DNA from: Candidatus Woesearchaeota archaeon
Lineage (GTDB): Archaea; Nanobdellota; Nanobdellia; Woesearchaeales; DSVV01
Length of the DNA stretch: 36,412 bases
Direction: 5' to 3'
NCBI GenBank assembly: GCA_016214075.1
Contig: JACRPI010000008.1
Coordinates: forward strand, 1-36,412
Shown in pieces: positions 19,108 through 36,277 of this stretch; positions within the stretch are counted from its first letter, which is position 1, and every line of letters starts with the position of its first letter. Position numbers and translations under genes: made by a program. The notes under the pieces were generated by a model. That model worked only from the letters and a program-made list of their open reading frames with translations, was not told the DNA's origin and did no database searches.

Positions 19108-19147
19108 CGCCGAGAGTGGGATTTGAACCCACAATAGTCCTTGGCAG
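19108..19147 (-). other. tRNA 3' half, probable integrase attachment site
   Basis: Read on the minus strand, the sequence has a T-arm with a perfect stem (GTGGG-TTCAAAT-CCCAC), the 3' acceptor strand TCTCGGC and discriminator G (19108). A matching 5' acceptor (GCCGAGA) is absent within 200 nt upstream, and no D-arm can be folded, so this is not a complete tRNA. Just before the T-arm is CTGCCAAGGACT. It looks like an anticodon loop plus 3' stem (a GCC, glycine-type reading), but it could instead be part of a long variable arm (Ser-type, consistent with discriminator G). Tyrosine integrases leave exactly such 3' halves. A trans-spliced split-tRNA half is the alternative. Confidence 0.6.
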
Positions 19148-19154
19148 AACTAAA

Positions 19155-19200
19155 GAGGATCTCTGAAACCTTTAGTTACCTAGAGGTTTCATCAGTCCTC
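19155..19200. repeat. Inverted repeat beside the attachment site
   Basis: TGAAACCT (19164-19171) faces AGGTTTCA (19184-19191), flanked by GAGGA (19155-19159) and TCCTC (19196-19200). Together these make a hairpin with an internal loop, immediately element-side of the tRNA remnant. The position suggests an integrase or excisionase binding site. It could equally be a leader structure if the tRNA half is transcribed. Confidence 0.45.
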
Positions 19201-19255
19201 CGCAATACCTGCTAATACGAATAAATGCGTCAGAAAAACATTCTTTCTTTGTGAG

Positions 19256-19275
19256 ATATATGTCAGGTATATATC
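19256..19275 (+). promoter_or_regulatory. Element promoter motif, copy 1 (integrase operon)
   Basis: This 20-bp motif, with core TCAGGTATATATC, matches 20875-20894 at 19 of 20 positions. TATATATC serves as a TATA box, placing transcription start near 19297, about 37 nt before the first gene. The outer bases form an inverted repeat (GATATAT facing ATATATC, 19255-19275), so a regulator could bind over the TATA box. Sharing it with the transfer operon suggests joint control. Confidence 0.6.
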
Positions 19276-19333
19276 GGTACTATGCACTGTAGCAACTTGG
19301 TATTTTAATGCGGAATGCGTATAGGTGCATACA

Positions 19334-19711
19334 ATGAATGTCTTTGAAAAAATAAGCAATACGAGACAACTTCTTCAACAACATGGCTTTCGCTATACAG
19401 ATGATGAGTTGTTTGCAGTGATGAGAAAATTAGGCAATGAATGGCATTACAAAAAACAGAATTCGCTCACTCAACAAGAAGCAGCAATATATGAGCTTCT
19501 TATGACAAACAGCATTAACCCAAATACAGCGTATAAATGGCTGCTTCTCATACAGGCGCCGCAGGATGTTCAAAAGCTGCTTGAAACAAAACGAGTGAGT
19601 CAAAGAAACGCTTTTGCTCAGAAACGTGAACACTATCTTATGAAATCAACGACAGATGATACCTTTCTCAACATGATTCTCGATTCTACAAGGAGGTATT
19701 TGATACGATGA
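19334..19711 (+). CDS. ParB-like HTH protein preceding the integrase
   Basis: The 125-residue basic helical protein has a segment (about 62-90: NPNTAYKWLLLIQAPQDVQ, then KLLETKRVSQRNAF) that resembles the HTH of ParB/KorB proteins (s-tvsrwLrLl-lPe-vqelle-gkis-r-A). It probably binds DNA. It overlaps the integrase start by 4 bp (ATGA), so the two are translationally coupled. It may supply the DNA-contacting function missing from the short integrase, or act as an excisionase/regulator (inference). ATG 19334 with an ATAGGTG ribosome site is chosen over GTG 19325. Confidence 0.6.
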   Translation: MNVFEKISNTRQLLQQHGFRYTDDELFAVMRKLGNEWHYKKQNSLTQQEAAIYELLMTNSINPNTAYKWLLLIQAPQDVQKLLETKRVSQRNAFAQKREHYLMKSTTDDTFLNMILDSTRRYLIR

Positions 19712-20520
19712 AACCAAGACAACAAACAGAACGAGAGGGAACGTGCAATAAGAAAAAACTGCCGTATGTCCTTTCAAAACAACAGCTCCTACAACTACTG
19801 CTCGTTATCAAAGATAAGCGTTATGCTATGCTTGTGTTTATGGGATGTTTTCAGGGACTGCGCATTGGGGAGATGCTTCGTTTAAAATGGGCAGATGTGG
19901 ATTTGGAACATGGAGAACTCAAAGTTATAGATGGAAAGAACACCAAACGGTATAAAAGTAATTATGGAAAAGATCGAATTGTTCCTATTAATGATATGTT
20001 TCTTCATGTCTGGAAACAATGGAGAGCAATGAACGAAGATGAAACCTTTGTCATTCCTGTCAAAACTGCGAACAAGAGAGAAAGTCCTGGAGAAATACGT
20101 TCTCTCTCACGACCTTTCCAACGAAGATTTACAGAATATCTGGAAGAAGCAAGACTTTTGGAAATAGACTATTATCAGGAAAATGGAGAACCGCGATATA
20201 AATATCACCTTCATACATTGCGTCATGTCTGTGGTACAAATCTTCGTCGTGCTGGTTTGGGAATTGACTATGTTCAAGACTTTTTAGGACATGAAGATAT
20301 TGAATCAACAAAATTGTACCTTCAGCTCGCAAAAGATGATCTTCGAGAAGTAAGTCATCTCGCGTATGCGTATCCAAAATCTCGCATAGGCTCTCCGCAA
20401 GCGCTTATTCAACCGATCGAAATTGCCTTAGACAAAGAAACACTGCGACTTCAGAAAGAGATATTAGAGAAAAAGCTGCAACTTGCGCAGTTACAGCAGG
20501 TTGTTGAGGTGCACTCATGA
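19708..20520 (+). CDS. Tyrosine recombinase (integrase), catalytic domain only
   Basis: Site-specific integrase of 270 residues. The catalytic set is visible: R52 in GLRIGEM, K88 in YGKDR, H169-x-x-R172 in HTLRH, H195 in LGHEDI and Y204 in STKLYLQL. Only about 20 residues precede the catalytic domain, so the usual 80-100-residue core-binding (SAM-like) domain is absent. Residues about 235-268 form a Leu/Gln/Glu-rich heptad-like tail, possibly for oligomerisation. AGGAGGT lies upstream. It overlaps the HTH gene before it and the Hjc gene after it by 4 bp each. It presumably recombines the tRNA att site at 19108. Confidence 0.88.
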   Translation: MKPRQQTEREGTCNKKKLPYVLSKQQLLQLLLVIKDKRYAMLVFMGCFQGLRIGEMLRLKWADVDLEHGELKVIDGKNTKRYKSNYGKDRIVPINDMFLHVWKQWRAMNEDETFVIPVKTANKRESPGEIRSLSRPFQRRFTEYLEEARLLEIDYYQENGEPRYKYHLHTLRHVCGTNLRRAGLGIDYVQDFLGHEDIESTKLYLQLAKDDLREVSHLAYAYPKSRIGSPQALIQPIEIALDKETLRLQKEILEKKLQLAQLQQVVEVHS

Positions 20521-20864
20521 ATCCTCTTTGGAATAAAGAGTATGAAAGAAAATTTGTTCAGCTCATGCTAAAGAAAGGGTATCATTGTGAGCACGTTGCA
20601 GGAAGTGGAAAAGGAGAAGCATCTGTTTGCGATTGCGTTCTCTTTGCGCATAGCAATGTGTATATGGTTGAAGTAAAAGCAACAGTCGACAAACGTTTTT
20701 ATCTTCGAGACTCTGTAAGAATTCAATTACAAAGACTTGTTGAGACTGCGACAAAACACAACGCGATTCCATTAGTTGCCATACGATTCAAGCGAAAAGG
20801 ATGGAATACTCTTGATCCAAAATTTGTTGAGCATGCAGAATATGAAGAAGGAAAAATGATCTAG
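20517..20864 (+). CDS. hjc: Archaeal Holliday junction resolvase (Hjc-like)
   Basis: The 115-residue protein carries the Hjc pattern: E10 in EYERKF, HVAGSGKGE near 26-34, D39, then VEVKAT with E52 and K54, and later IQLQRLVE. These are the metal-binding residues of the PD-(D/E)XK resolvase fold, which cuts four-way DNA junctions symmetrically. The usual pDv motif reads CDC here. Length is normal. It is coupled to the integrase by ATGA overlap, so it likely resolves recombination or replication intermediates of the element rather than serving as the housekeeping copy. Confidence 0.8.
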   Translation: MNPLWNKEYERKFVQLMLKKGYHCEHVAGSGKGEASVCDCVLFAHSNVYMVEVKATVDKRFYLRDSVRIQLQRLVETATKHNAIPLVAIRFKRKGWNTLDPKFVEHAEYEEGKMI

Positions 20865-20874
20865 TTCTTTTCTC

Positions 20875-20894
20875 ATATATATCAGGTATATATC
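20875..20894 (+). promoter_or_regulatory. Element promoter motif, copy 2 (transfer operon)
   Basis: This 20-bp motif is identical to 19256-19275 except for one base. It lies 10 nt after the Hjc stop and 76 nt before the zinc-ribbon start. A second TATA-like box, TATAAAAG (20920-20927), lies closer to the gene and would give a leader of about 20 nt. The repeated motif could therefore be a promoter, or an upstream regulator site for the closer TATA box. Confidence 0.55.
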
Positions 20895-20969
20895 TTTCAC
20901 ATTCACTTTGTCAACTTCGTATAAAAGGATAGAACGCCTACTACTCCATTATCTCTGAGGTGTTTCGGA

Positions 20970-21119
20970 ATGGAGAGAAAATGGAAGTATACAAAGAATG
21001 CAGGAAAAGATCGCTGTCAAAAATGTGGCATAAAGCTTCTCAAAGATGAAATTGTTTTCTGTGAAATCTGTTTGAGAGTATATGATATAAGCTCAAAAAA
21101 GAGGTGGCAACGAAAATGA
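20970..21119 (+). CDS. Small zinc-ribbon protein
   Basis: The 49-residue protein has two CxxC knuckles (C16-C19 and C31-C34), Lys/Arg-rich ends and no other domain: a minimal zinc ribbon likely to bind DNA or RNA. A GAGGTG ribosome site lies 9 nt upstream. Its stop overlaps the methyltransferase start by 4 bp (ATGA). As first gene of the transfer operon it may be a regulator or a methyltransferase accessory (inference). Confidence 0.7.
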   Translation: MERKWKYTKNAGKDRCQKCGIKLLKDEIVFCEICLRVYDISSKKRWQRK

Positions 21120-22039
21120 AACCAAGAATTCTCGATTTATTTGCTGGCTGTGGTGGTTTCAGTCAGGGCTTTATGCAAGCAGGCTGCGAAGTAATTGCCT
21201 TTGTCGAGCAGTGGCAGCCAGCAGTTGCCACCTTTCAGCAGAACCATCCTTCTGCACAACTGATTGGCACTGACATTACAAAAATAAAAAATGATGATCT
21301 CTTGAAATACTACAAGAAAATTGACATTATCATAGGAGGACCACCATGTCAAGGATTCAGTTTATGTGGAAACCGTGACCCAAAAGATAAGCGCAATCAA
21401 CTCTACAAACATTTTCTGCGATTTGTAGAAGTGATAGAACCAATCTATGTTGTTTTAGAAAATGTGCATGGTCTCTTGACCATGCGAGATACAGATGGCG
21501 AAAAAATTATTCACAAAATTGTGGAAAGGTTCATTGAAAATGACTATTCTGTGACCTATAAAATATTGGACGCTGCAAATTATGGAGTTCCGCAGCATAG
21601 AAAACGCTTGTTTATTATTGCTCGAAAAATGAAGTGGTTTTCTTCAGAGCACTTGTCTAAGAAAACTGTTGCAGATGCGCTTGATGATTTGACAAACCAA
21701 GAGAATGTTTTGAACGGTCATGAATTCTTTACACCGACACAAGAAACAATTCAAAAGATACGAAATCTCAAGCAAGGAGAGCGGATGTCTCTCAAATTTA
21801 ACACCTCAAGACAGAGACTTTTTGCGGATAAGCCATCTCGAACAATTTTGACCAAGCCAATCTACATTCATCCATTTTATAATCGCTTTTTGACCGCACG
21901 AGAACTCGCGAGATTGCAGAGTTTTCCTGACAACTTTCTCTTTTGCGGGTCAAAAATAGACAAAGTCAAGCAGATAGGGAATGCAGTCCCTCCGTTGCTT
22001 GCGAAAAAAATAGCAGAATCACTGAGGTGCACACCATGA
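21116..22039 (+). CDS. DNA (cytosine-5) methyltransferase, Dcm-type
   Basis: The 307-residue protein has every main C5-methyltransferase motif: I DLFAGCGGFSQGF (7-19), IV GGPPCQGFS with catalytic C78, VI VVLENV, VIII GVPQHRKRLFIIA, and IX/X ending in QIGNAVPPLLAKKIAESL. The variable region that reads the target sequence is short. No restriction enzyme gene is adjacent. Within a transfer operon its role is probably to mark element DNA so that it survives in new hosts (inference). ATG 21116 with AGAGGTG is chosen over GTG 21104. It overlaps both neighbours by 4 bp. Confidence 0.93.
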   Translation: MKPRILDLFAGCGGFSQGFMQAGCEVIAFVEQWQPAVATFQQNHPSAQLIGTDITKIKNDDLLKYYKKIDIIIGGPPCQGFSLCGNRDPKDKRNQLYKHFLRFVEVIEPIYVVLENVHGLLTMRDTDGEKIIHKIVERFIENDYSVTYKILDAANYGVPQHRKRLFIIARKMKWFSSEHLSKKTVADALDDLTNQENVLNGHEFFTPTQETIQKIRNLKQGERMSLKFNTSRQRLFADKPSRTILTKPIYIHPFYNRFLTARELARLQSFPDNFLFCGSKIDKVKQIGNAVPPLLAKKIAESLRCTP

Positions 22040-22341
22040 AACGACTTGATAGAATGTTAACTGTATTCAGCATTTTTCTTGTGAAACTTGCTGTCATTTA
22101 TGGCATTCTTTTTGTGTTTGCCAGAGATTCAGTTCTTGTTTTGTATGTTTCTGTTGTGGGAATGATTCTCCTTGTTTTCTATCTGTTTGGAGAAATTGTT
22201 GCTGTTGAAATCAAAGAACTACAAGCAATGAAAGAAATCCAACGGATTCTCAGAAAACAGAAGCAGGAGAAAAAGCAAGAACAACAAAATGGATTTTCAG
22301 CATTTAGAAAAATATTTGGAGGTGAGGACTATGTGGAATAA
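22036..22341 (+). CDS. Small two-helix membrane protein of the transfer operon
   Basis: The 101-residue protein has two transmembrane helices (about 8-27 and 32-53) followed by a charged Lys/Glu/Gln-rich coiled coil (57-85). No family was recognised. It overlaps the methyltransferase by 4 bp and the pilin-like gene by 11 bp, with a GAGGTG ribosome site. Topology and position suggest an accessory component of the secretion channel. Confidence 0.65.
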   Translation: MKRLDRMLTVFSIFLVKLAVIYGILFVFARDSVLVLYVSVVGMILLVFYLFGEIVAVEIKELQAMKEIQRILRKQKQEKKQEQQNGFSAFRKIFGGEDYVE

Positions 22342-22663
22342 ACTTTTTTTTATAGCTCTCTTAGTGAGCATTGTCTTTGTGCAGGCAGCGTATGCAGAGT
22401 TAGACTTTGACACAGAACTAAGCTCTGATGAAGAAGCGACCATTGACGAAATTCTTGAGCCAGTGATGAAAGTGTACCGCTTCATCAAATACACTGCAAC
22501 AGTTATTGGCGTTTTGATGCTCGTGTTTGCAGGGATTAGCTTTGCGACATCAGGCGGAGACAATGCGCAAAAAGAACGGGCAAAGAATACAGCAGCAGGT
22601 GTAGTTGTGGGCTTGATCTTGATCTGGGTTGCGCCGCTGATTGTGGAGTACATCTTCACATGA
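22331..22663 (+). CDS. VirB2/TrbC-like type IV secretion pilin
   Basis: The 110-residue protein has a signal peptide (5-20, cleavage after AAYA), an acidic linker and two membrane helices (about 54-72 and 88-108) around FATSGGDNAQKERAKN. The GGD-(N/P)-x-K/R-x-A-(K/R) loop between two helices is characteristic of VirB2-type pilins of type IV secretion. ATG 22331 is chosen because GGAGGTGAGG lies just upstream. It overlaps the VirB6-like gene by 4 bp. It probably forms the mating channel or filament. Confidence 0.75.
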   Translation: MWNKLFFIALLVSIVFVQAAYAELDFDTELSSDEEATIDEILEPVMKVYRFIKYTATVIGVLMLVFAGISFATSGGDNAQKERAKNTAAGVVVGLILIWVAPLIVEYIFT

Positions 22664-24675
22664 AAATACTTTATTTTTTTCTTTTTTTGGCTTTATTGCC
22701 AACTGTTGCTGCGTTTGATTGCAGTAGTGTGAGCAATCCAGCAGCGTGTGAAGAAATTCTCTCTTTAGAATTAAATGAAACACAAGAGGAATATTTGCTT
22801 GCTGATCTTGTATACCCTTATAATTATCCAAATTATGACTTTATTGCTGACTATAATCGAGCAATACAAGTCACCACTCCTCCTGAGAATACAACCATTT
22901 ACTCATCCACGTCCTTCAAAAATGCGTGGATGAGTTTTCTTACTCTTTTTCCTGCTATCTATGAGGAAGATGTTCTTTATGTTCCTTCGCAAACAAATAC
23001 ATTGAGTGCATATCATTATGATCTTGAGATTCCAAAAACAACTGCTGTGGTAGATTGTCAGACAAAATATAGTGTTCTTCAAAATCAGAGCACTGTTTCT
23101 ATTCTTGTCAATGGCAAAAAACAAGCAGAAGGAACAGATGCAAATGTCTCTATCACAGAAGATAGTATAATTACCACGCAGCTTGACATTCTTTTTTCTT
23201 TGGGAGTTGAGCATTGGAAGCAGAAAAAATATTGCTGCTCTTACAAAAAAGGAAAATGCAAAACATGGTGCACTTCCTGCCAATATGATTCAACTGAAAA
23301 GAAACAAGATTCTTTGACAATCAGCGAAAGCAAAGAAGTTGCTTACTACGATGATATTCCTTTCGCTGACCTTCTCATAGTGAATCAATATTATAACACC
23401 ACAAAAGGCAATCTTACAGCAGTAAATTATACGTTTCTGAATCTTTCTTTTGAAAACGCCTATTTTACTGAGCAAAACAAAATGTATTCTGTTGTTTTTG
23501 AGAAGAAGCCTTATTATTTCATAACACTGAAGTCAGAGAACATAACAGATAGAAAATCATTTAACATAAACAGAGATAATAATACATTTTTTGTTCAGAA
23601 TCCCAATAACTGCACACTTTTTGCTTCCAATTATTTTTACAATTATAGCTCTCTTTGTGACCTTACGGTGCAACAAGAAATAGTGCCTGAATTTGAGATA
23701 ATAGAAAGAAACAGTAACCTCATCCTGCTTGTTCAAATCATACTCTTGCTGATTGTTTTCTATGTTCTTATGAAAGAAATTAAGAAGCGATTGTTCATTT
23801 TCTTTCTTGTTCTTGTCATTATAATCCCTTTCGTTGCTGCTGAGGAAGAAGAATGTGGAATAACAAATCTTTCCAGCTGTTTGCCAGAGGCAATGTATGA
23901 CTATTTCCTTGAAATAATCAATGCTCCATTACAACCATTACTTCTTTCTATCAAAAGTTTACTCACCGCAGATGTTGAGACAGACATTTTTTATGAGCCA
24001 TGGCTTGCAGTAACGTATGTCTTGAGCTTTTTCTATGTCTTTTTGTTTTTGTATGCAGGTTTTACATTTCTTACATCAGGGGGTAATCCTATCAGGAGAG
24101 CGCACGCAAAAGAATCGTTGCAAAACACAGTTTTAATGATTATTCTGATTGCAGCATCGTATTATCTGTATGATCTTCTTCTTACTGTCAACAGCTCCAT
24201 CAGCAATGGTATTTTGGACATGATTGATGAAGAGTTCTTTCTTTTGACGTTTGACAATTTTGTCAATATCGCGTTAGAAGGCATTTTTGTCACGTTTTAC
24301 TTGTTTGCCCTATTGTTCGCATTACTCTTTCTTGTTTTGCGTTATATTGTCGTCAGTTTTGGGGTTATTTTGTTTCCTATTGGCATCTTTTGCTACTTTA
24401 TTCCTCCATTACGCAGTTATGGGCGATTTATCCTTAATGTCTTGGCAATATTCATCTTTATCTCCATTATTGATCTTCTACTTATCTTGGTCTGTTCATT
24501 AATCGTTGAAAACGCGATATTTGAAAACATTACGATTGTCGTCATGATTGCGTGCTTCTCTCTGATAAATTACTCCTTATTTTGGGCAATCAAATTTGCG
24601 ATGACAAAGAGCAGTATGGATGGACTAAAGGATGATGTTCAGCAGGCGGTCAAATACATCGCAGCGGTGGTTTGA
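22660..24675 (+). CDS. Large VirB6/TrbL-like polytopic membrane protein with cysteine-containing ectodomain
   Basis: The 671-residue protein has a signal peptide (1-18), a 325-residue extracellular region rich in Asn/Tyr with N-x-S/T sites and a cysteine cluster (CCSYKKGKCKTWCTSC, about 191-206). From about residue 350 there are eight or nine membrane helices. The TFLTSGGNPIRRAHAKESL loop resembles the VirB2-like loop of the preceding gene, suggesting an internal duplicated pilin-like module. Size and position before VirB4 fit the VirB6 channel component. It overlaps its neighbours by 4 bp and 1 bp. The ectodomain could mediate contact with recipient cells (inference). Confidence 0.7.
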   Translation: MKILYFFLFLALLPTVAAFDCSSVSNPAACEEILSLELNETQEEYLLADLVYPYNYPNYDFIADYNRAIQVTTPPENTTIYSSTSFKNAWMSFLTLFPAIYEEDVLYVPSQTNTLSAYHYDLEIPKTTAVVDCQTKYSVLQNQSTVSILVNGKKQAEGTDANVSITEDSIITTQLDILFSLGVEHWKQKKYCCSYKKGKCKTWCTSCQYDSTEKKQDSLTISESKEVAYYDDIPFADLLIVNQYYNTTKGNLTAVNYTFLNLSFENAYFTEQNKMYSVVFEKKPYYFITLKSENITDRKSFNINRDNNTFFVQNPNNCTLFASNYFYNYSSLCDLTVQQEIVPEFEIIERNSNLILLVQIILLLIVFYVLMKEIKKRLFIFFLVLVIIIPFVAAEEEECGITNLSSCLPEAMYDYFLEIINAPLQPLLLSIKSLLTADVETDIFYEPWLAVTYVLSFFYVFLFLYAGFTFLTSGGNPIRRAHAKESLQNTVLMIILIAASYYLYDLLLTVNSSISNGILDMIDEEFFLLTFDNFVNIALEGIFVTFYLFALLFALLFLVLRYIVVSFGVILFPIGIFCYFIPPLRSYGRFILNVLAIFIFISIIDLLLILVCSLIVENAIFENITIVVMIACFSLINYSLFWAIKFAMTKSSMDGLKDDVQQAVKYIAAVV

Positions 24676-27600
24676 TGGCGTATGACATTCCTCCTCCATT
24701 GCAGCATAAAGAAAAGATTCTGTTTGGTTTGACATTTCAGCAGTTGGGCTATGCTGCTCCTGCTTTTCTTTTGCTTGTCATTATTATTCTCAAAATAAAG
24801 ATGAGCATCTATGTTTCAGGCACTATTGGTGTTTTGATTTCATTAGTTGCGGTGTTCTTTATGTTCTTTGATGGAAAAGAGCGATTGCTTCATTTGATGA
24901 CGTTTTTGCGAAATAAAGAAGTGCAGGTCAACAGCGATAAACTCAAAGACATTATCAACATAGAAAAAGTAGAAAACAGCATTGTTGCGACAAAAAAAGG
25001 AAAGCTGAGCATTCTTGAAGTTATTCCGATGAACCTTATGATTCGTCCTGATGAGGAAAAAGAGAGCATTATTGCTGGCTTTCAGAAATTTTTGAACAGT
25101 TTGGATTTTCCTATCCAGTTTCATGTCAGCAGCCATCCGATTAGTGTTCGTATGCACCTCAAGGACTTAGAAAACAAAATGAAGGACAAGAAAGAATTGT
25201 TTGCTTCTTATTGTGCATTTCTCAAAGGGACAATAGAACATAACAATATCAAAAACAGGCGCTTCTATGTCATTATTCATGAGAAATATGATCTTGCTAT
25301 TCAAACACAGGTTTGCAAAGAAAAACTGGAAAGTCTTGGGTTAAAAGTTCGCACGCTTGCAGGAGATAATTTACTTAAAATGTTTTATGAGTACATTGCG
25401 GATAACCAGCAAAAGAAGCTGCAAGACGATCAAGAAATAGAAGAGTACATGCACTTTCTGTTGTCTCCGCAAAAAGTCGTATTTTATCCTGATTATTTTG
25501 AGATTGACAAAAAATACTGCAAGGTTATTACAGTGACAGGGTATCCGCATACTGTTGAGATTGGCTTTTTGGACAAAATTATTTCTTCAGGAGAGAATTA
25601 TGACGTCAGTATTCACATTGAACCGTTTCCTATCAATGATACGATGATTCAATTGAACAGAGAGTTACAGAAACAGCAGGCTGATCTGTATAGCGATTCA
25701 AAAAAAGGTATTCTGAATCCATCATTGGATATTAAATTTGCATCCACTCGCAAAGTTTTGGAGGATTTGCAGAAAGGAAAGCAAAAGCTGTTTCATGTGT
25801 CATTGTATATTATGTGCAAAGGAAGCAATAAAGAGGACGTTGATGTCCTCGCGAAGAAGGTGAAAGCTGATTTAGATGGACTCATGATACAAAACAGTCA
25901 GCCAACATTCCAGATGATGGACGCGTATGCTTCGATGCTTCCCTTAGCAAAGAATCCTCTTTCTATTAAACAAAATATCCATACACAGGGCTTGAGCGCA
26001 TTCTTCCCTTTTTCTTCTCCTTTCCTTGACATTGAACATGACGGAATCCTCTTGGGTTTGAATAAAAATAAAATTCCGTACATCAAAAATCTCTTTGGAT
26101 TGACAAACGCAAATGGGATTGTCTTAGCGACCTCTGGCGCTGGAAAGAGCTATTTTACAAAATTGCTGATGTCTCGGATGTTCATGAATGACTGCGATGT
26201 CATTATTATTGATCCACAAGGAGAATATCTTGGGATTACCGAGCATTACAAAGGAGAAACCATTACAATTTCTAAGGACAGCAACACTATGATTAATCCA
26301 CTCGACTTAATGGGGCATGAGTATTTGGAGAAACGCTTGTCTTTAATGGATATTTTTCAGATCATGTTTGGTGATTTGACAGAAGTACAGAAATCCATTT
26401 TGGACAAAGCGATTGATCTTACCTATGGTCGCAAAGGCATTAATGGGAAGAAGATAAAACCAAACTCCGCTCCTCCAAAAATGCAGGATTTGTATCAGGA
26501 AATGAAAAATCTGGAGCGAAAATGCGCGTCTCAGGAACGAGTGACGTATCGGGCATTGCTCAATAGATTGCGCATGTACACAGAAGGCGGCGTGTTCAGT
26601 TTTTTGAATAAAGAAACAAACATTAATTTTTCCAATAATTTTGTCTGCTTTAATATTGGCAATATGCCCAAACAAGTAAAGCCAGTTGTCATGTATTTAG
26701 TTTTGGATTTTGTGTATATGCGTATGAAACAGTCATTGAAGCGAAAGATGCTTGTGATTGATGAAGCATGGGCAATGTTGCAGACTGCTGAGGAATCATC
26801 GTATATTTTTGAGATTGTCAAAACATGCCGAAAGTATAATCTTGGTTTATTGATGATTACGCAAGATGTCGCTGATTTAGTTGGTAGTCGTGCAGGGCAT
26901 GCTGTTTTGGCTAATACCTCTTATACGTTCTTATTACGTCAGAAACCGGCAGTTATAGATAATGTGAAAAGAACGTTTAATCTTTCTGCTGCTGAGCGAG
27001 AGTATCTCATGTGCGCTGAGAAAGGAAATGGAATATTGATTTTAGAAAATGAACATCAGGAGCTTCACGTCATTGCTTCAGAAGAAGAACATAATTTAGT
27101 CACTACAAATCCAGATGAGATGCGAAAGAAAACAGAGAAGAAGGAAGGTGTTGTTGTGGAGAAAGAGAAGGTTGATATTGGTTTGGACGTTGAGCAGGAT
27201 GTGCATGTTGCTTTGAATAAAACTCTTGAAGAAAAAAACTTTTTGAATAATAATGGGTATATAGCTGGAAGTTTTCATAATTTAACTAAAGGAAAACATA
27301 GAGAATATTTTGTTAAAAAGAGAGCACCTGAAGGAGCACAGCACACGTTTTACGTTGATCTCATTTATCAGGAGCTTAAGAAATACACTGAGAATGTTTC
27401 AAAGTACAGAACAGAGCGACCAGATATTGTTTTTGTTAATGCTGCTGGTGAAGAAATTGCTATTGAAGTTGAAACGGGTGTTAAAGCGAAATATGAGAGC
27501 CATAAAGACTATTTCAATGACAAATTTGCAAAAAGAGTACAGGAATATGGAGACAGATGTTACATCTTCTTGACTGCAATGAAGTATAGAAATAGCTATG

Positions 27601-27713
27601 CTCGACACAAGATGCTTTTATTATTTCGCTTACAAATCAAAGAGTTTGCATCCTTACAGTTCAGCGGTAAACAGAATACAACTATCGGAACACATTTTAA
27701 GGATGCAGAATAA
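24675..27713 (+). CDS. VirB3-VirB4-type fusion ATPase with PD-(D/E)XK-like C-terminal domain
   Basis: The 1012-residue protein has three parts. Residues about 8-65 contain two membrane helices preceded by LFGLTFQQLGYAAP, like VirB3/PrgI. Residues about 100-850 are a VirB4/TraC ATPase: Walker A ATSGAGKS (485-492), DPQGEY near 515, Walker B LVIDEAW (D696, E697), and ITQD near 730. A linker (860-890) leads to a C-terminal domain with RPD (915-917) and IAIEVETG (E931, E933), the spacing of a PD-(D/E)XK nuclease fold but with E in place of the usual K. It powers pilus or DNA export. ATG 24675 is preferred to TTG 24672. Last gene of the operon. Confidence 0.88.
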   Translation: MAYDIPPPLQHKEKILFGLTFQQLGYAAPAFLLLVIIILKIKMSIYVSGTIGVLISLVAVFFMFFDGKERLLHLMTFLRNKEVQVNSDKLKDIINIEKVENSIVATKKGKLSILEVIPMNLMIRPDEEKESIIAGFQKFLNSLDFPIQFHVSSHPISVRMHLKDLENKMKDKKELFASYCAFLKGTIEHNNIKNRRFYVIIHEKYDLAIQTQVCKEKLESLGLKVRTLAGDNLLKMFYEYIADNQQKKLQDDQEIEEYMHFLLSPQKVVFYPDYFEIDKKYCKVITVTGYPHTVEIGFLDKIISSGENYDVSIHIEPFPINDTMIQLNRELQKQQADLYSDSKKGILNPSLDIKFASTRKVLEDLQKGKQKLFHVSLYIMCKGSNKEDVDVLAKKVKADLDGLMIQNSQPTFQMMDAYASMLPLAKNPLSIKQNIHTQGLSAFFPFSSPFLDIEHDGILLGLNKNKIPYIKNLFGLTNANGIVLATSGAGKSYFTKLLMSRMFMNDCDVIIIDPQGEYLGITEHYKGETITISKDSNTMINPLDLMGHEYLEKRLSLMDIFQIMFGDLTEVQKSILDKAIDLTYGRKGINGKKIKPNSAPPKMQDLYQEMKNLERKCASQERVTYRALLNRLRMYTEGGVFSFLNKETNINFSNNFVCFNIGNMPKQVKPVVMYLVLDFVYMRMKQSLKRKMLVIDEAWAMLQTAEESSYIFEIVKTCRKYNLGLLMITQDVADLVGSRAGHAVLANTSYTFLLRQKPAVIDNVKRTFNLSAAEREYLMCAEKGNGILILENEHQELHVIASEEEHNLVTTNPDEMRKKTEKKEGVVVEKEKVDIGLDVEQDVHVALNKTLEEKNFLNNNGYIAGSFHNLTKGKHREYFVKKRAPEGAQHTFYVDLIYQELKKYTENVSKYRTERPDIVFVNAAGEEIAIEVETGVKAKYESHKDYFNDKFAKRVQEYGDRCYIFLTAMKYRNSYARHKMLLLFRLQIKEFASLQFSGKQNTTIGTHFKDAE

Positions 27714-27999: not shown

Positions 28000-28004
28000 C
28001 ATTG

Positions 28005-29726
28005 ATGAAAGAGATGTATACAGTTGCAGACTTTTTTTGTGGCGCAGGAGGATTTTCTGAGGGGTTCAGACATGCTGGCTTCAAAGTGATATTTGCTTTA
28101 GACAATTGGGAGATTGCTAGGCAGACACATAAACTTAATCATCCTGAATCAAAACATCCTGGTCTTGACTGCTATTATGAAACTAAGGGGGATATACTTC
28201 TTATCCCTCCCGAAAGAGTTAATGAAATAGTAGAAGATGTAGATGTTATTATTGGGTCGCCTCCTTGTGTTTCTTTTTCTTCTTCCAATAGAGCAGGAAA
28301 AGCGGATAAGTCCATTGGAATAAAATTGATTGAAAAGTATTTTCAGATCATTGCTATAAAAAAACATAAGATAAATTCTAGGTTGAAATATTGGATTATG
28401 GAGAATGTTCCTAATTCAAGAAGTTTTCTAAAAAAATATTACACTTTCAAAGATTTAGAGTTGGATGAAAAAAAGTTACGGAAGTTAGGGATTAAAAAAA
28501 AAGAGATAGACATTGCACTAGAAATTGATACCTCTGCTAGAGGGATATATAATTCTGTACATTTTGGCGTACCACAAAAGAGAGAGAGATTCATCTGTGG
28601 TGATTTTGTGGTTCCAGAAAAGAAGACTCCTGAAGAAAAAGATTGGATGATTCTCGGATTAATCCTTAACTCTTTGCGCCCAAACGGCAGCATCATAACG
28701 GATCCGATTTATAACATAAATATTCCAGATGAAGAACTAACTGATCATAGATATGATACCACGATGCCTGAAGCTGGGTGGAGACAAGCTAGATTAAAGA
28801 AACAACAAGCTAGGTACTATGGAAGAATGTCATTTCCTGAAGACGAAAATGCTCCCAGTAGAACCATTATGGCTACAAAATCCAACATGACAAGAGAAGC
28901 TATGATTTTTTCTAATGGTAAACCAAATGTCTATCGTATTCCTACCATAAGGGAGATTGCTTCGATTATGTCATTCCCTATAACTTATCTTTTTCAAGGT
29001 AATAACCAAGCGGATAAATATAGGTTAGTTGGAAATGCTGTCTGTCCTAAGCTTGCCTTTGCCTTTGCAGAAGCCATATTAAAAGCAGAAAGAAAAAGAA
29101 GAAGAATCGTACCACCCACAGTAAGTGATAAGAGAGGTCTTTTTCTCAATCTTAGAGAAACTCCACCACCCCCTATTAGAATTATCAACAAGCATCCTCT
29201 GGCAAATTTTGCAGAAATTGTTCCTAATCTAAAAACTTGTGGATTCAGAGTAGAGCTTGATAATAATTTTCCAAGAACAGGATCAAAAAGTTTTAAGTGG
29301 AAAGCAAGCATCCATCATGCAACAGGAAAAGACTCTATGAAAGTATGCTTTCCGAAAAGAGAATCGATTATATCATTGTTAGAAAATTTTAAGGAGAAAG
29401 ACAGAATTCATAGATTTATATCTTTTGTAGAAAAAAAATTTAAAACTAAGATTCCCCCTACAAAAGAATTCCAAAGACAGCACTGCATGATGGAAAAAGA
29501 CAATGGTCTACTTACTCCTGTTGGAAGTTTACAAGAGGCAAGTGAAATAGTGGAAAAGTTTTTCCCTATACAGAGATATGGGGTGGCAAAAATTCTTAAT
29601 AAAAAAGGTAAGAAGAGTATAATCCATTTTGACAAAGGAAATCCTCCAAAAAATTCTATCCCTTTGAGAATAGCCGCCGCATTGTTCATTTGCAACCACA
29701 TAGTACAACTTACAAAGAAGAAATAA
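28005..29726 (+). CDS. DNA (cytosine-5) methyltransferase with long C-terminal extension
   Basis: The 573-residue protein has C5 motifs I DFFCGAGGFSEGF (9-21), IV GSPPCVSFSS with catalytic C88, VI MENVP, VIII HFGVPQKRERFICG and X YRLVGNAVCPKLA. It differs from the operon methyltransferase in sequence and length. After motif X (about 345) there are over 200 extra residues, Lys/Arg-rich, including a KxxKWKASIHHATGKDSMKV block, of unrecognised function. The ATG at 28005 follows AAAGGGTG; a longer TTG start at 27957 is unlikely. It converges on the minus-strand operon with 1 bp between stops, so it probably supplies the protective mark for that system. Confidence 0.9.
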   Translation: MKEMYTVADFFCGAGGFSEGFRHAGFKVIFALDNWEIARQTHKLNHPESKHPGLDCYYETKGDILLIPPERVNEIVEDVDVIIGSPPCVSFSSSNRAGKADKSIGIKLIEKYFQIIAIKKHKINSRLKYWIMENVPNSRSFLKKYYTFKDLELDEKKLRKLGIKKKEIDIALEIDTSARGIYNSVHFGVPQKRERFICGDFVVPEKKTPEEKDWMILGLILNSLRPNGSIITDPIYNINIPDEELTDHRYDTTMPEAGWRQARLKKQQARYYGRMSFPEDENAPSRTIMATKSNMTREAMIFSNGKPNVYRIPTIREIASIMSFPITYLFQGNNQADKYRLVGNAVCPKLAFAFAEAILKAERKRRRIVPPTVSDKRGLFLNLRETPPPPIRIINKHPLANFAEIVPNLKTCGFRVELDNNFPRTGSKSFKWKASIHHATGKDSMKVCFPKRESIISLLENFKEKDRIHRFISFVEKKFKTKIPPTKEFQRQHCMMEKDNGLLTPVGSLQEASEIVEKFFPIQRYGVAKILNKKGKKSIIHFDKGNPPKNSIPLRIAAALFICNHIVQLTKKK

Positions 29727-29727
29727 T

Positions 29728-30126
29728 CTATTTTACTAAATCAAGCAATTCTTTCTCTATTCTTTTTACAGGGTTCTCCTCAGCTTGTTCAAGAAATCTT
29801 TTTTTGAGAATTTGGAATCCAGCATGCGCAAATTCTTCTGCGATATTCCGCATTTTTGCAGTATCTTTTAAAATTTTCACTCCTTCTTCTTTAACTGCTA
29901 TAGAAGCTATCAGCCATGTTTCTTTCCTAGAAACTGAAGCATTGATTAGAGGATATTTCTTAGGAACTTTTTGTCGCATTCCATATTTAAATCCCAAAGC
30001 CATAGAAAATATGAAGATGTCTTTCAAATCCTTCCCTTTAAAAAAATCAGTCTTTTGAATCTTCTTATAATCATCTTGATTCTCTTTATCTAAATTGAAA
30101 TTTCTTCCATAATTTAATTCAGTCAT
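29728..30126 (-). CDS. Small protein resembling Dnd-associated protein 4
   Basis: The 132-residue soluble protein contains FFKGKDLKDIFIFSMALGFK, then a basic turn, WLIASIAVKEEGV and FAHAGFQILKKRF. This order (F-KD-fAAa-Gf, then iAl, then a-gGl-il) resembles the small proteins annotated as Dnd system-associated protein 4, recalled from memory and not searched. Its start overlaps the ATPase stop by 4 bp (ATGA), so they are coupled and probably act in one complex. Last gene of the operon. Confidence 0.5.
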   Translation of the reverse strand: MTELNYGRNFNLDKENQDDYKKIQKTDFFKGKDLKDIFIFSMALGFKYGMRQKVPKKYPLINASVSRKETWLIASIAVKEEGVKILKDTAKMRNIAEEFAHAGFQILKKRFLEQAEENPVKRIEKELLDLVK

Positions 30127-32087
30127 ATAGTCACCTTAGTTTCGCAAGAAGCATCATTATAAAGCAATTTGAATTCTTTTCCTATTCTCTTACTAATTTT
30201 GCTTTTTACTGAGTGAGTGTATTCTTGATCGGTTACAAGAAGTGTGACCTGTGTATTTTTTAAATAATTAGGTAGACACTCTGCGATATTGTCTTTTGGT
30301 TCTCCAGAAATCCTTCCTAAAGGGGTATCAATTATAACGGGGGCATCAAATCCTGACACTTCATTTAATGCTGCCATGAATGAAAGTGCAAGAACCTGTC
30401 TCTCACCTGCTGATAGTGTATCCAAAGAATCTTTTCCAAATCTATTTAAAACAGAAACATTATAATTTTCGTCTATTTTAACTTCTTTATATGTCTCCTT
30501 CTTCCATATAAGGCTCAAGAAGTAATCTTGCGTCTTTTTTTGTATGGTCATCCTTACATCTTCAATCATATCTTCCAATATCTCCTTGAGTAAAGTTATG
30601 GAGCCATTTAGAATATTAACCTTGTCAAGCAAATCCTTATTTTCACTCTCTTTACCTAACAATGCTCCAAGATCCTTAGTCCATTCTTTTATCTGTGTAT
30701 TAAGATCAGAAATATTGTTTTTACAAACCGCAAGACTTCCATTTTCTGACTGCAAAGCTTTCATTAGACTCTCTCTTTGGCTTTCTTTGCTGCTAATTGA
30801 CTCCAGGTCTATGTCCTTAAGTGCAATACTTATTTCAGATATCCTTTTCAAAGCTTCGTGCTTTCGTTTTTCAAGCAAAATGAGTCTTTCACTTAATTTT
30901 CTTAATTTCCCCTCAAATGAACTCAAGCCATCTATCCCGAATCTAAGCTCAGACCTTCCTTCCATCAAAAGTTTGGAATATTCTCCATATTCCTCATGCT
31001 GTGCAATCTTATTCAGGAGTTCAAATTCATTGGTACCTCTCTTAATCTCTCTACCACAGAGACATTCTTGTTCAGAAATTAGCTTTCTTACAAATGAAGG
31101 ATCGATATTAGGAGGGATTACATTCTTCTCTTCTAATTCATCAATCTGTTTCATTAATTCGCAAACTGCACCATGTATAAGAATAGTTGAACCATGCTCA
31201 AGCATAAGTTCATTCTTCTCATCAAGGCATACTTTCATCTCCTCGGACAGACTCTTGATATCCTGGTCTAATTCATCTCTCCTGCTCTGCAACTCTTTTA
31301 CATTGACATCTGAATAACTTGACAAGAACTTATTTATCTTCTCTATATCTTCATTTGCTTCAAGAATCCTTTTCCCATAGTCGTCTTCATCAGTTTGAAG
31401 CTCTCTTAACCTATCTTCAGCACTCTCTAAATCTTCTTGAAGTGATTTAATTTTTGGGCTTAGATTTTCTTGACCTTTGACCAGCTTGTAATTTACAGAT
31501 TCTAGATGCTTTATTGTACGTTGTAGTAATTCTATCTGAGACACATCAAAAACTGCTTTTTTCACTTTTGTTCCTCTACCTGGTTTGAAAAACTCATCAA
31601 GCTTTTCTCCATCGAAGAAGAAATACCCTTTGATTTCATTAGGTAATATTGCTTTTACTCTCGTTGTAGGATTTATTGCAGGTTTGAACCCTTGTTCAGT
31701 TGCTTCCATAATTACAAATTTCTCATCTATTTTCTCCAAGAAACCATTGTCCCTTTTTCTATAAGTTGAAGTCCGTTCTATAATATATTCTGGATTCTCA
31801 TTTCCCATATTTATTCTCACTCTTACAACTGTCCTTTCTCCTGGTGCTAATTCTCTTAGAAGTTGCTCGTTCACAATTCCTACTTTATTTTCTTCGTCAT
31901 AATTGCTCAATACATCATCTTCCTTTCCATATAAGCACCACATCACTGACCGCAGGAGGTTTGACTTACCAGTTCCATTCGCTCCTTCAAATATAGTAAA
32001 ATTTTTATGGGGGTCTGTAGAAAATTTAATCTCTTGTTTATTTCTATATTGCCTGAAGTTTTCTATTTCTAGTGAGTATATTCTCAT
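30123..32087 (-). CDS. DndD-like SMC/Rad50-type ATPase
   Basis: The 654-residue ABC-type ATPase has Walker A GANGTGKS (35-42), the motif YFFFDGEKLDEF (155-166) characteristic of DndD-type proteins, and two coiled-coil arms (about 190-330 and 390-520). A hook region with C342-x-C344 (CLCGRE) lies between the arms. The signature is LSAGERQ (558-564) and Walker B VIIDTP has D587. DndD ATPases belong to DNA phosphorothioation systems, but no dndB, dndC or DndA-like gene is visible here. It probably scans or clamps DNA and controls the helicase/nuclease partners. It overlaps genes on both sides by 4 bp. Confidence 0.85.
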   Translation of the reverse strand: MRIYSLEIENFRQYRNKQEIKFSTDPHKNFTIFEGANGTGKSNLLRSVMWCLYGKEDDVLSNYDEENKVGIVNEQLLRELAPGERTVVRVRINMGNENPEYIIERTSTYRKRDNGFLEKIDEKFVIMEATEQGFKPAINPTTRVKAILPNEIKGYFFFDGEKLDEFFKPGRGTKVKKAVFDVSQIELLQRTIKHLESVNYKLVKGQENLSPKIKSLQEDLESAEDRLRELQTDEDDYGKRILEANEDIEKINKFLSSYSDVNVKELQSRRDELDQDIKSLSEEMKVCLDEKNELMLEHGSTILIHGAVCELMKQIDELEEKNVIPPNIDPSFVRKLISEQECLCGREIKRGTNEFELLNKIAQHEEYGEYSKLLMEGRSELRFGIDGLSSFEGKLRKLSERLILLEKRKHEALKRISEISIALKDIDLESISSKESQRESLMKALQSENGSLAVCKNNISDLNTQIKEWTKDLGALLGKESENKDLLDKVNILNGSITLLKEILEDMIEDVRMTIQKKTQDYFLSLIWKKETYKEVKIDENYNVSVLNRFGKDSLDTLSAGERQVLALSFMAALNEVSGFDAPVIIDTPLGRISGEPKDNIAECLPNYLKNTQVTLLVTDQEYTHSVKSKISKRIGKEFKLLYNDASCETKVTI

Positions 32088-32290
32088 TTATCTTCTCCTC
32101 TGATTCCTTTGGAATGTTTCTCTAAGTATTTGATGTATTGAGAAGAATAATACCGTTCCATTTCTTCATTGAAAAATTCCCTTTCAAAGTTTAGTATGGA
32201 TATTAAAAAGTCTTTTACAGATTGATTACTATTAGATTGACTTATTTTATCAATAATCAACTTATTAATTTCTTGTTTTTTTGTTACCAT
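32084..32290 (-). CDS. Small helical hypothetical protein between helicase and ATPase genes
   Basis: The 68-residue, highly charged helical protein has no recognised family. It overlaps the ATPase start by 4 bp and follows the helicase stop by 10 bp, so it belongs to the operon and is likely translated. A role as a bridging subunit for the ATPase is plausible but inferred only from position. Confidence 0.6.
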   Translation of the reverse strand: MVTKKQEINKLIIDKISQSNSNQSVKDFLISILNFEREFFNEEMERYYSSQYIKYLEKHSKGIRGEDK

Positions 32291-32300
32291 GCATAGTCTC

Positions 32301-34328
32301 TTAGAGGTTGTATCTGACCCTAATCTTGTTAATTATCCTTATTGATTGCAGAGGATTGAGTGATGCATCTGCGAATTCCTCATATCTTTTTAATTCTTTC
32401 GCTAAAATCTTCTTTTCAACCTCATAATATTCACAATTAGCATTTTCATCAATATCAGGTACAACAATAAAGTCATGGATAATTGCCTTTGTCTTACCAG
32501 GAAATTTTCTCAATACACGCCCCCTGCGTTGTATGTACTCTTTTGGGTTGGATGAGCTTGCTAGGATTATTGCAGTCTTAATTGATGGAATATCTACCCC
32601 TTCATCCAAGCACCTTATTGCTACAAGTACATCATATAGACCTTTCTCAAAATTTTCCTTAATAGATTTCCTCTCCTTCAACTTCTCTCTGTTTGTGAAT
32701 TGGTGAAACCTTATTCCTTTAGACATCAACAAATCTTTTACTTCCTTTATTTGTTTTTCCGAGCAGAAGATTAGGCAGCTTTCAATTTTCTCTATGGATT
32801 CTAGAATCATTACCAACATATCAATCTTTTCTATTGCATTGGTTACAATTTTTGCTCTCTTTATTAGTAGCAATTCGAGAGTTTCTTTACTTTTCTGGTT
32901 CTTTTTCCCTAAAAGAATTGCGATTCTTTGTCCTATATGCCTATACTCCCTCAGCTCTTCTTCTTTTAGATTTACTAAGTGGGGAAAATAGTTATAAGGA
33001 GTAAGAAAGCGACCAATAGCATTTTTCAATGGAAACTCGAAAACAGTCTTATTAAAATAAGAGTAAATAACTTCTGTACCTTCGTCATCTAACCATCTTC
33101 TTGGAGTAGCAGTAAGAGCAAGCCTATACCTATACTTATCTAATAACCCTTTAGACCTTCTTGTTGATCCTGCAACATGAGCTTCATCACACACTATCAG
33201 TATTGGGATGTCAGATTCTTGCATAATTTTTATGAATTTTTCTGATGAGAAAGTGTCATATGTGGTAACTATTATCAATTTGTTTATGTGACCCATCTCT
33301 ATATCTAAAATCTTATCTTTTATCTTCTTCTTCCAAATGGCAGAGGATCCAAATGCAGGGTCACTTTCAAAACCTGATGATGACATCTCTTCTATCCATT
33401 GTGTCGCCAAATGTTGATATGGTACGACAATTATAGTTATCAATTTCCTTTCCCTTTCATATATTTCTTTAATTCCTGCAATCGCAGTAAATGTTTTTCC
33501 TGTACCGGTTGCCATTTCGAGAAGACCTATATAACTATTATTTCTCCATCCATAAATAGCATCTTTTTGGTAATCTCTTAACTCTCTTTTTTTCTTAAAG
33601 CTGAGTCTCTTTCGAGAGATTTCTTTAAATGCCTCTTTAAGCGAGTCTTCTGTTTCTGGGCAGAGAGAAATGAATTTCTCTCTTACTGCAGAGGGTATAT
33701 CTATGACTTTTGTCCGTACACCTTCATTTTTCCAGAATTTTTCAAATCTCTTGATGTCGGAATTCAAATATGGTAATTCCGATTCCTTCCAACTACGGAA
33801 TACCTTAAATTCTTCTATGTTGAATACCCAACCATTAGCGGATTCATTATCAGAACCACTAAATGAAACAAAATTCCCTTCGGAGTCGTAGAAAACACCC
33901 GTCTTTTGATGAAATATCCCTTTATTTGTAGTCTCCTTTTCAATTATTGCTACTTTTATCTCAATCATTTCGTGAGCAATCATCCATGAAAACACCTTAA
34001 CATGATTTTTTACTAACTCATTTTCAAAAGTATCTAAATCCTTGATGATTATCTCACTTATTACTTTTCCCGAATCTGAGAGTCCTTTATCTATTGCTTC
34101 GTAATCACTCTTAGATACACCTACATTTATAATTAGTCTCATTTTCCCTTTGTTCCATACAAACTTTGCTATTCCGCTAGCTGCAAGAGCAAGAGATGTT
34201 GATGAGAAATAACCTGCGATTCGATCATATCTTATTGATTCTGATAGGACAGGGATATAGAACTGATTAAGTATATCATCTTCATCAGAATCATAAGAAT
34301 GCTTAAGGTCTAATTTTTTCAATGACAT
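32301..34328 (-). CDS. PLD-family nuclease fused to SF2 DEAH helicase
   Basis: The 675-residue protein has an N-terminal phospholipase-D-like nuclease domain: H140-x-K142 in FHQKTGVFYD and FSGSDNES (156-163), the HKD-type active site seen in PLD-helicase fusions. A superfamily 2 motor follows: LRDYQKDAI (250-258), Walker A ATGTGKT (273-279), DEAH (381-384), LTATP (405-409), DEGVDIPS and QRRGRVLRK. The architecture is common in restriction-type defence, where the motor moves on DNA and the PLD domain cuts. It overlaps the upstream gene by 10 bp. It is likely the effector of this system. Confidence 0.9.
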   Translation of the reverse strand: MSLKKLDLKHSYDSDEDDILNQFYIPVLSESIRYDRIAGYFSSTSLALAASGIAKFVWNKGKMRLIINVGVSKSDYEAIDKGLSDSGKVISEIIIKDLDTFENELVKNHVKVFSWMIAHEMIEIKVAIIEKETTNKGIFHQKTGVFYDSEGNFVSFSGSDNESANGWVFNIEEFKVFRSWKESELPYLNSDIKRFEKFWKNEGVRTKVIDIPSAVREKFISLCPETEDSLKEAFKEISRKRLSFKKKRELRDYQKDAIYGWRNNSYIGLLEMATGTGKTFTAIAGIKEIYERERKLITIIVVPYQHLATQWIEEMSSSGFESDPAFGSSAIWKKKIKDKILDIEMGHINKLIIVTTYDTFSSEKFIKIMQESDIPILIVCDEAHVAGSTRRSKGLLDKYRYRLALTATPRRWLDDEGTEVIYSYFNKTVFEFPLKNAIGRFLTPYNYFPHLVNLKEEELREYRHIGQRIAILLGKKNQKSKETLELLLIKRAKIVTNAIEKIDMLVMILESIEKIESCLIFCSEKQIKEVKDLLMSKGIRFHQFTNREKLKERKSIKENFEKGLYDVLVAIRCLDEGVDIPSIKTAIILASSSNPKEYIQRRGRVLRKFPGKTKAIIHDFIVVPDIDENANCEYYEVEKKILAKELKRYEEFADASLNPLQSIRIINKIRVRYNL

Positions 34329-35263
34329 GTTTTATCTTTTAATAAACCCCTAACTTTATTCTCCCTAATACGATCTTCAAAACTTTTTTCCGGTTGTTTT
34401 ATTTTGTTGAATCCTCTCTCCCCCTTCGCTATGGATATTATTCTTTGAATCTCTCCATAATCCTCATGTTGTTCTATAAATTGTTTCAGCTGCTCTGCTT
34501 GCCTTAATCTGGGTTGTCCATATATTTTAGATACTAAGAAAGAGAGTAAACCTAATAGTTCTCTTTTTTCATCAGCCAGACGAGCAATTCTCCTTGGATA
34601 ATCTGATTGCCTCTCATCTAAATCAAGTGAACTATACTTCCTCAATCCAACCAATCGTAAAATTTTAAGATAATGCTCGCTAATCAGAATTTTACTCTTG
34701 GAATAAATATCATCAATCAGCTCCACTATGTCTTCATTACCTTCCCAATTTTTTGTTATTAATCCTTCATCTATATTATCTTTTATCTCTTTTAAGACAT
34801 AACTGCATAAAAAAAGATCATCTATATAACCTTCAGCTCCATACTTGTGCTCGGGAATTACATCTTCAGGCAACACAAAATAAGCAAGAGCACAATTTAT
34901 GAGGATTTTAGTATTCCAGTCCGAATTATCGTCAATTAATATGTTACAGAGTAACTTAAAAAATTCTGGGCAATATATTAAAATATTGTGGTGTTCTCCT
35001 CCATTGATACTTACCGCCTCCTTTAAATCCTCGTAAAATCCACGAAAATCTTTTTTATTTCTAATTTTTAAGCTTCCTGCGTCATCCTCTGTTGAAAAGT
35101 CAGCTATGACTACTCCATCCATTACTTTCTTCTCTTTTATGGAAGTTTTTTGCTGTCTTTCATCGACTTTAGCACAGCAACTCATACATAAATTCTTTTC
35201 GCCTAAACTAAAGAGTTCTTTCTCTCTTCCACATAAGCCACAAGTTCTTTCTGTAATCATCAT
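34319..35263 (-). CDS. Zinc-ribbon protein with DUF1232 domain
   Basis: The 314-residue protein starts with a zinc ribbon (C8-x-x-C11 and C26-x-x-C29). Residues about 115-155 (NCALAYFVLPEDVIPEHKYG, then AEGYIDDLFL) match the DUF1232/YkvA pattern of P-D-iPd-...-G-iDDl, a short domain often found beside defence and membrane genes. The C-terminal third is helical and charged. Its biochemical role is unknown; the ribbon suggests nucleic-acid binding. An AGAGGTAAA ribosome site precedes the start. It follows the nuclease stop by 1 nt and overlaps the helicase start by 10 bp. Confidence 0.7.
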   Translation of the reverse strand: MMITERTCGLCGREKELFSLGEKNLCMSCCAKVDERQQKTSIKEKKVMDGVVIADFSTEDDAGSLKIRNKKDFRGFYEDLKEAVSINGGEHHNILIYCPEFFKLLCNILIDDNSDWNTKILINCALAYFVLPEDVIPEHKYGAEGYIDDLFLCSYVLKEIKDNIDEGLITKNWEGNEDIVELIDDIYSKSKILISEHYLKILRLVGLRKYSSLDLDERQSDYPRRIARLADEKRELLGLLSFLVSKIYGQPRLRQAEQLKQFIEQHEDYGEIQRIISIAKGERGFNKIKQPEKSFEDRIRENKVRGLLKDKTCH

Positions 35264-35264
35264 T

Positions 35265-36269: not shown

Positions 36270-36277
36270 TTTTTCTA

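Follow-up and report, generated by a model that had tools for sequence, protein, structure and literature searches.

Does a cluster of type IV secretion system (T4SS) genes in a Woesearchaeales genome belong to a mobile element, and which protein would process the DNA if the element carries no recognisable relaxase? This question is raised by a stretch of 36,412 bp (the window), which is the entire contig C8 of a draft genome (G000; 1.62 Mb, 98% complete, 46 contigs). A preliminary description of the window had proposed an integrative, conjugation-like element at 19108-27713 with VirB2, VirB6 and VirB3-B4 homologues. Our analysis supports an archaeal, DPANN, integrative and T4SS-bearing element. 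We consider it rather likely that the locus is a 24-kb element resembling integrative and conjugative elements (ICE-like), with a MOB_C-like nickase built into its VirB4. In the open-access literature searched, we found no account of ICEs in Woesearchaeota or other DPANN archaea, and the finding documents transfer elements in DPANN archaea with restriction systems as cargo.

Extent of the element and the tRNA-like gene it interrupts

Without an insertion sequence (IS), the element measures 24,063 bp and is spread over the contigs C8 and C30. On C8 it starts at a D-loop crossover (19206-19209) and extends well past the 8.6 kb first proposed, beyond 27713, to the IS at 36274. On C30, 7.0 kb of element genes are followed by the opposite IS end, and the other end of the element lies on this contig. 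The following features mark the ends of the element and of C8:

19108..19209, minus strand: 3' part of a tRNA-like gene from D-loop to discriminator base, class II and intron-containing (from sequence; weak tRNA match at 19108-19185)
19206..19260, no strand: right element end (attachment side) with the core GGTA and the inverted-repeat arm CGCATTTATTCG, both as reverse complement; common to contig C106 of the same-genus genome G001
1-141 and about 36272/36275-36412, no strand: IS end of about 140 bp at both ends of C8; contig break
C30:41914-41935: matching tRNA 5' half GCCGAGATCGCATAATTTGGTA, then ACGGCGAACAAATGCG

The tRNA 3' part on C8 lacks its 5' acceptor strand. The acceptor halves on C8 and C30 are complementary (GCCGAGA pairs with TCTCGGC), and the joined halves form a full cloverleaf whose acceptor stem measures 7 bp and which has a long variable arm and an anticodon-loop intron (-53 kcal/mol). 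Since the two ends of the element carry matching tRNA halves, one tRNA-like gene is interrupted in its D-loop by the element. Both ends also bear short inverted repeats, with ACGGCGAACAAATGCG on C30 matching CGCATTTATTCG on C8 in inverted orientation. The predicted circular junction of the element is CGCATTTATTCGTATTAGCAGGTAACGGCGAACAAATGCG and the predicted empty site is GCATAATTTGGTATTGCGGAGG.

The IS, of which G000 has about 20 copies, fragments the assembly and generates 5-bp target duplications of the CTnAG type, here CTAAG/CTTAG. It splits one nuclease gene, with the first ~48 codons on C30 and the remainder running from the right end of C8. Removal of the IS and of one CTTAG copy restored the nuclease frame as ...KLVHEVLEKLYKDLQFQ..., in register with the homologue in G033. 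Because the split gene rejoins in exact frame with a 5-bp duplication, the C30 and C8 halves are one element. In a draft genome of 46 contigs in which C30 and C8 are unjoined, a split tRNA could be an assembly artefact made of unrelated contigs. The complementary acceptor halves, the exact nuclease frame, the flank synteny shared with two genomes and the recurrence of the end sequence in G001 make this very improbable.

The C30 flank encodes GatD, MNT and a regulator, and the C8 flank a pilin gene with a class-III signal. In the same-genus genome G002 these flanks are adjacent, GatD being the direct neighbour of the pilin gene, and in G001 they lie close to each other. Both genomes lack the T4SS region at the syntenic loci. 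Therefore, it is not part of a conserved core synteny, which would have spoken against the original proposal, as the flanking genes neighbour each other in relatives without the element. The preliminary description had also called for a second attachment site and an intact tRNA. The left attachment half was located on C30, and the neighbouring gene pair provides the empty context, but an intact tRNA partner was not found in G000, only paralogues.

Accordingly, the usual tRNA-island model, in which the element rebuilds an intact tRNA, was rejected after the search had returned these paralogues and then the 5' half on C30. Trans-splicing of two tRNA halves was considered as well. The end repeats can pair (12/13 by eye), but no bulge-helix-bulge was seen at the D-loop junction, and we do not claim it. 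Both junctions support insertion of the element by the tyrosine integrase into the D-arm/D-loop of one tRNA-like gene, which is not rebuilt. Known archaeal integrases target the anticodon, the T-loop or the 3' end, usually with reconstitution of the gene, and pTN3-like ones the 5' half (PMC8371274). An element that splits an archaeal tRNA-like gene in the D-loop bears on the origin of fragmented tRNA genes (model of PMC3293823).

Together with about 11-12 other tRNA-like genes of G000, the split gene forms an expanded class-II family that exists beside the ordinary tRNA set (C35:1844, 18947, 20321, 29090; C21:11750; C30:11204; C40:6896; C10:8709; C13:42117, 70206; C5:143246). They share G73, a long variable arm, a Ser-like D-arm and anticodon-loop introns with a bulge-helix-bulge, and their mature anticodons would read GAU, GAG, CAA or GAA. 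High-scoring members were found in G000 and G001 and not in G002. Redundancy of this family may explain why one split copy is tolerated. On contig C106 of G001, the same element-side sequence is attached to a different tRNA-like 3' piece. Together with the relatives described below, this suggests that the element, once excised, would re-integrate into a tRNA-like gene of a recipient.

A reduced T4SS and its spread in the phylum

The T4SS genes, and a small gene in front of them, are encoded as follows:

22036..22341, plus strand: small two-helix membrane protein with a charged tail (from sequence)
22331..22663, plus strand: VirB2/T4SS pilin (T4SS_pilin 1.9e-11, TrbC 3.2e-7; 10-member alignment)
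22660..24675, plus strand: VirB6/CedA-like polytopic channel protein with an N-terminal ectodomain of ~370 aa (alignment of relatives; homology to VirB2)
24672..27713, plus strand: VirB3-VirB4 fusion ATPase with an extra C-terminal domain (TraG P-loop 2.1e-30; PrgI/VirB3-like N-terminus 1.5e-5)
27192..27647, plus strand: MOB_C-relaxase-like C-terminal domain of VirB4 (conserved E887, H891, D918, E932, E934 and K951)

The gene inventory of the preliminary description held up: the tRNA 3' part, integrase, Hjc resolvase, C5-methylase, VirB2, VirB6-like protein and VirB3-B4 all lie on the strands it gave, with strong family matches and, for VirB6, indirect support. The overlaps within operons, described as 1-11 bp, measure 4, 4, 4, 11, 4 and 1-4 bp. 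VirB4 further matched VirB4_plasma (3.2e-99) and PDB 4ag5 (2.3e-47), and its true start is probably ATG 24675. In the profile search the VirB6-like protein had neither a Pfam nor a PDB match. However, its membrane half aligned with the VirB2 profile (hhalign E 2.8e-10), and it adjoins VirB2 and/or VirB4 in most relatives. The same homology was reported for CedA and CedA1 by Beltran et al. (PMC9905601). An AlphaFold model of VirB6 built without an alignment had a pLDDT of 40 and was not used. A gene similar in size to that of the small two-helix protein lies between the methyltransferase and VirB2 in G004, G008, G048 and G007.

VirB4 relatives were detected in 36 of the 371 genomes of the phylum (E < 1e-60). 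Many of 32 contigs have integrases near the T4SS, adjoining tRNA-Asp, -Arg, -Thr, -Glu or -Leu, and six contigs of the family carry TFIIB paralogues. Genomes of the same host family do not group together in the VirB4 tree (three changes are needed for f1 and two for f96). Moreover, G008 and G004 belong to different genera and share a T4SS core of 90-91% DNA identity with almost no other match between the contigs compared. A scan of genome contigs with a single protein gave one match, in Woesearchaeota SI048_bin101, and a search of IMG/VR viral contigs with VirB4 and VirB6 profiles gave no relatives.

The element has its own integrase, flanking attachment sites and VirB4-based mating-pair formation genes, as expected of an ICE. 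Its family shares integrase, tRNA sites, VirB4, VirB6, VirB3, restriction-modification (R-M) genes in the element pool, a TFIIB homologue (in the six contigs above) and the lack of a recognised relaxase with the thaumarchaeal integrative-conjugative elements described by Krupovic et al. 2019 (PMC6563490). Those elements mostly encode VirD4, whereas this family has none nearby and additionally possesses a VirB2-like pilin and the VirB4 C-terminal domain.

The VirB2-like pilin, VirB6-like channel and VirB4-like ATPase, including the pilin-channel homology, are also common to the Ced and Ted DNA-import systems (Beltran et al. 2023, PMC9905601). The locus could thus be a mobile defence island whose domesticated T4SS serves DNA import or repair, or protein delivery, and not self-transfer. 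This would agree with the same reduced trio, the lack of VirD4 and of a classical relaxase, and the methylase or R-M genes found within 18 kb of the T4SS in 21 of 32 contigs, a raw count without a background rate. We regard it as unlikely, since the patchy spread, the disagreement of the VirB4 tree with host families, the integrases with their tRNA sites and the near-identical block in one genus pair indicate a moving element, and a MOB_C-like domain is hard to account for in a pure importer. Ced and Ted are domesticated chromosomal systems, whereas the Woesearchaeota trio is located in an integrase-bearing element and not at a conserved chromosomal locus.

Mobility of the ICE-like element is well supported, as the preliminary description had proposed; its self-transfer is what we infer. 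By analogy with the family, DNA would be exported through VirB6 and a VirB2 pilus, driven by VirB4. The locus might instead be a decayed, immobile remnant of a single past integration that has lost excision and transfer, as the IS within the nuclease gene could indicate. Decay does happen, since only VirB4 remnants are left at C30:3231-3359 and on contig C25 of G001. Nevertheless, the genes for integrase, Hjc, VirB2, VirB6 and VirB4 are undamaged, and neither end has lost its repeat, which leaves this alternative a low probability. The fragments at C30:3231-3359 in G000, near the left end of the contig, derive from a second, degraded VirB4 and suggest an older element.

The C-terminal domain of VirB4 and the relaxase question

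According to papers and reviews, archaeal conjugative elements so far lack a recognised relaxase (PMC12857230, PMC9905601, PMC6563490), and Patescibacteria T4SS mostly lack a relaxase too (PMC12102498). The preliminary description had suggested that the missing relaxase and coupling ATPase might be encoded outside the window or that the DNA is processed by another route. A separate relaxase and VirD4 were indeed not found, but they are absent from the whole element and not merely from the window, and VirB4 itself ends in a MOB_C-like domain. As no VirD4/T4CP coupling protein is present among the element genes, we classify the element as ICE-like and not as a canonical ICE.

The C-terminal domain comprises about 150 residues (aa 841-992) without a Pfam family. 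All 31 complete VirB4s examined carry it; D, F, ExE, G and K are invariant among them, and the H is conserved in all 30 sequences that cover its position. MPF_FATA-type VirB4 proteins from ICEs of monoderms (the CD1110 and Mbov_0397 families) and the Patescibacteria T4SS (PMC12102498) have the VirB4 core and the PrgI/VirB3-like part in common with this VirB4, at about 25% identity. Among the best 5000 plasmid VirB4 matches none covers 80% of the query, and thus none of these reaches through the C-terminal domain. Searches of plasmids with the domain alone and of phages with a stand-alone copy gave nothing.

NCBIfam showed a faint match on the domain motif to 'MobC family replication-relaxation protein' (E 0.008). 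Therefore, MOB_C relaxases were collected and the profiles compared. The test profile consisted of five diverse MOB_C sequences; the CloDF13 record is broken in mobC, and an intact relative was taken instead. The domain aligned with this profile over the catalytic H/PD/ExE core (hhalign E 3.6e-5, score 37.7, 86 columns), with H on H, PD on PD and AxExE on AxExE. In comparison, 200 column shuffles reached a mean of 12.9 and a maximum of 19.9, the reversed profile 9.7, and 15 other element families including three nucleases a maximum of 19.3. The H...PD...A-x-E-x-E core is thus shared with the MOB_C relaxases (CloDF13 MobC, pAD1 TraX; PF13814) at the level of profiles. These are free-standing bacterial proteins with an N-terminal winged helix, whereas here the domain forms the C-terminus of VirB4.

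The PD-(D/E)XK superfamily includes the MOB_C relaxases (PMC12857230), and the VirB4 domain could accordingly be a restriction-like or DNA-binding PD-(D/E)XK module with a role unrelated to relaxases. Stand-alone copies without VirB4 in other genomes of the order (L021-L023) would fit such a module. However, three other PD-(D/E)XK element families do not match the domain (scores 14-18) while MOB_C does, every complete copy of the transfer motor carries the domain, and one stand-alone copy lies beside integrases. We consider this alternative possible and rather doubtful. Hjc-like and RecB/Cas4-like assignments were negative in hhalign, and a PDB profile search with the domain returned only chance matches of the ubiquitin type. 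The stand-alone copy in G022 (L023, 838-3312) is located between two integrase genes.

Several observations weigh against a conjugation-like element with a nickase on its VirB4. The link to MOB_C comes from comparing profiles, the one for MOB_C built on just five sequences, at a hhalign probability of 72%. Hmmscan with PF13814 made no call on the domain; in the controls MobC scored 78.7 bits and another annotated MobC was also missed. Besides, a lysine follows closely after ExE in MobC, but the lysine conserved in VirB4 is located about 17 residues downstream of it. Neither VirD4 (PF02534) nor a PF03432 relaxase was found anywhere in G000, so that transfer competence is putative, and in the present copy an IS interrupts a cargo gene. 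No PF03432 relaxase was found among 11 element-bearing genomes, nor was there a credible VirD4. Other relaxase families gave no match in Pfam scans of the larger G000 element proteins, the only test made of them.

While the similarity to MOB_C is evident from the profiles, a nicking function is suggested by homology. The C-terminal domain of VirB4 would probably nick and hold the transfer strand, perhaps aided by a NikA-like ribbon-helix-helix (RHH) protein encoded at the other end of the element. Relaxosome helpers are typically RHH proteins, and a covalent DNA intermediate has not been observed with MOB_C relaxases (PMC12857230). On a wider scale, at least one large group of conjugation-like systems in archaea could have its missing relaxase in the VirB4 C-terminus, as a MOB_C-type nickase. 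A single protein would then take the place of VirB4, coupling protein and relaxase in elements across the Nanoarchaeota. On this we are slightly more doubtful than confident. The presence of the domain on every complete VirB4 relative examined provides a named domain and six residues as candidates.

Cargo and integration genes

Further genes of the element in the window are:

19331..19711, plus strand: conserved integrase-partner open reading frame (126-128 aa, all helical), upstream of the integrase in 7 contigs
19708..20520, plus strand: tyrosine integrase, catalytic domain (PF00589, 8.7e-25)
20517..20864, plus strand: Hjc-type Holliday junction resolvase (PF01870, 3.6e-15)
21104..22039, plus strand: C5-cytosine DNA methyltransferase (PF00145, 1e-72)
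28002..29726, plus strand: second C5-cytosine methyltransferase, cargo (PF00145, 6.3e-37)
29728..30126, minus strand: 132-aa protein at the DndE position beside PbeC, cargo (by position only, no family match)
30123..32087, minus strand: PbeC, a CxC-type DndD-like ABC ATPase with an ECLCGR zinc-hook, cargo (PADLOC PbeC 1.4e-147)
32084..32290, minus strand: 68-aa small protein of the Pbe-like module (by position)
32301..34328, minus strand: PbeA, PLD-like/SF2 helicase, cargo (PADLOC PbeA 5e-237)
34319..35263, minus strand: DUF1232 protein, cargo (PF06803, 1.9e-9)
35265..36276, minus strand: C-terminal part of the IS-split PD-(D/E)XK (RecB/Cas4-like) nuclease (PF12705 3.8e-17)

The region 27957-36276 contains an antiviral Pbe/CxC-DndE-like restriction module with both PbeA and a PbeC bearing the CxC hook, as well as a C5 methylase. 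No TIGR03183 match for DndC or phosphorothioate (PT) modification was found in G000. Judged by its genes, the module corresponds to the described CxC-DndE variant with a cytosine methylase (PMC10853773). PbeA, the PbeC CxC hook, a small protein, a neighbouring C5 methylase and the lack of PT genes are common to the PbeABCD and CxC ABC-ATPase-DndE systems with a cytosine methylase (PMC6459918, PMC10853773). In contrast to these, the module is here the cargo of a transfer element, and its DndE is assigned by position only. Methylase and restriction cargo may pay for the upkeep of the element. Relatives of the methyltransferase at 21104..22039 were found near VirB2 in G004, G008 and G048. On C30 the element encodes the NikA-like RHH protein, an aldolase, a glyoxalase, a NACHT ATPase, a CARF-HTH regulator and a phosphatase-like protein.

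The integrase-partner protein had an AlphaFold pLDDT of 64 and no fold match in the PDB. Relatives of Hjc adjoin the integrase in G033 and G165. The integrase-Hjc operon is flanked by near-identical copies of the motif ATATATrTCAGGTATATATC at 19250-19285 and 20870-20895, which possibly represent an operator or an arm site.

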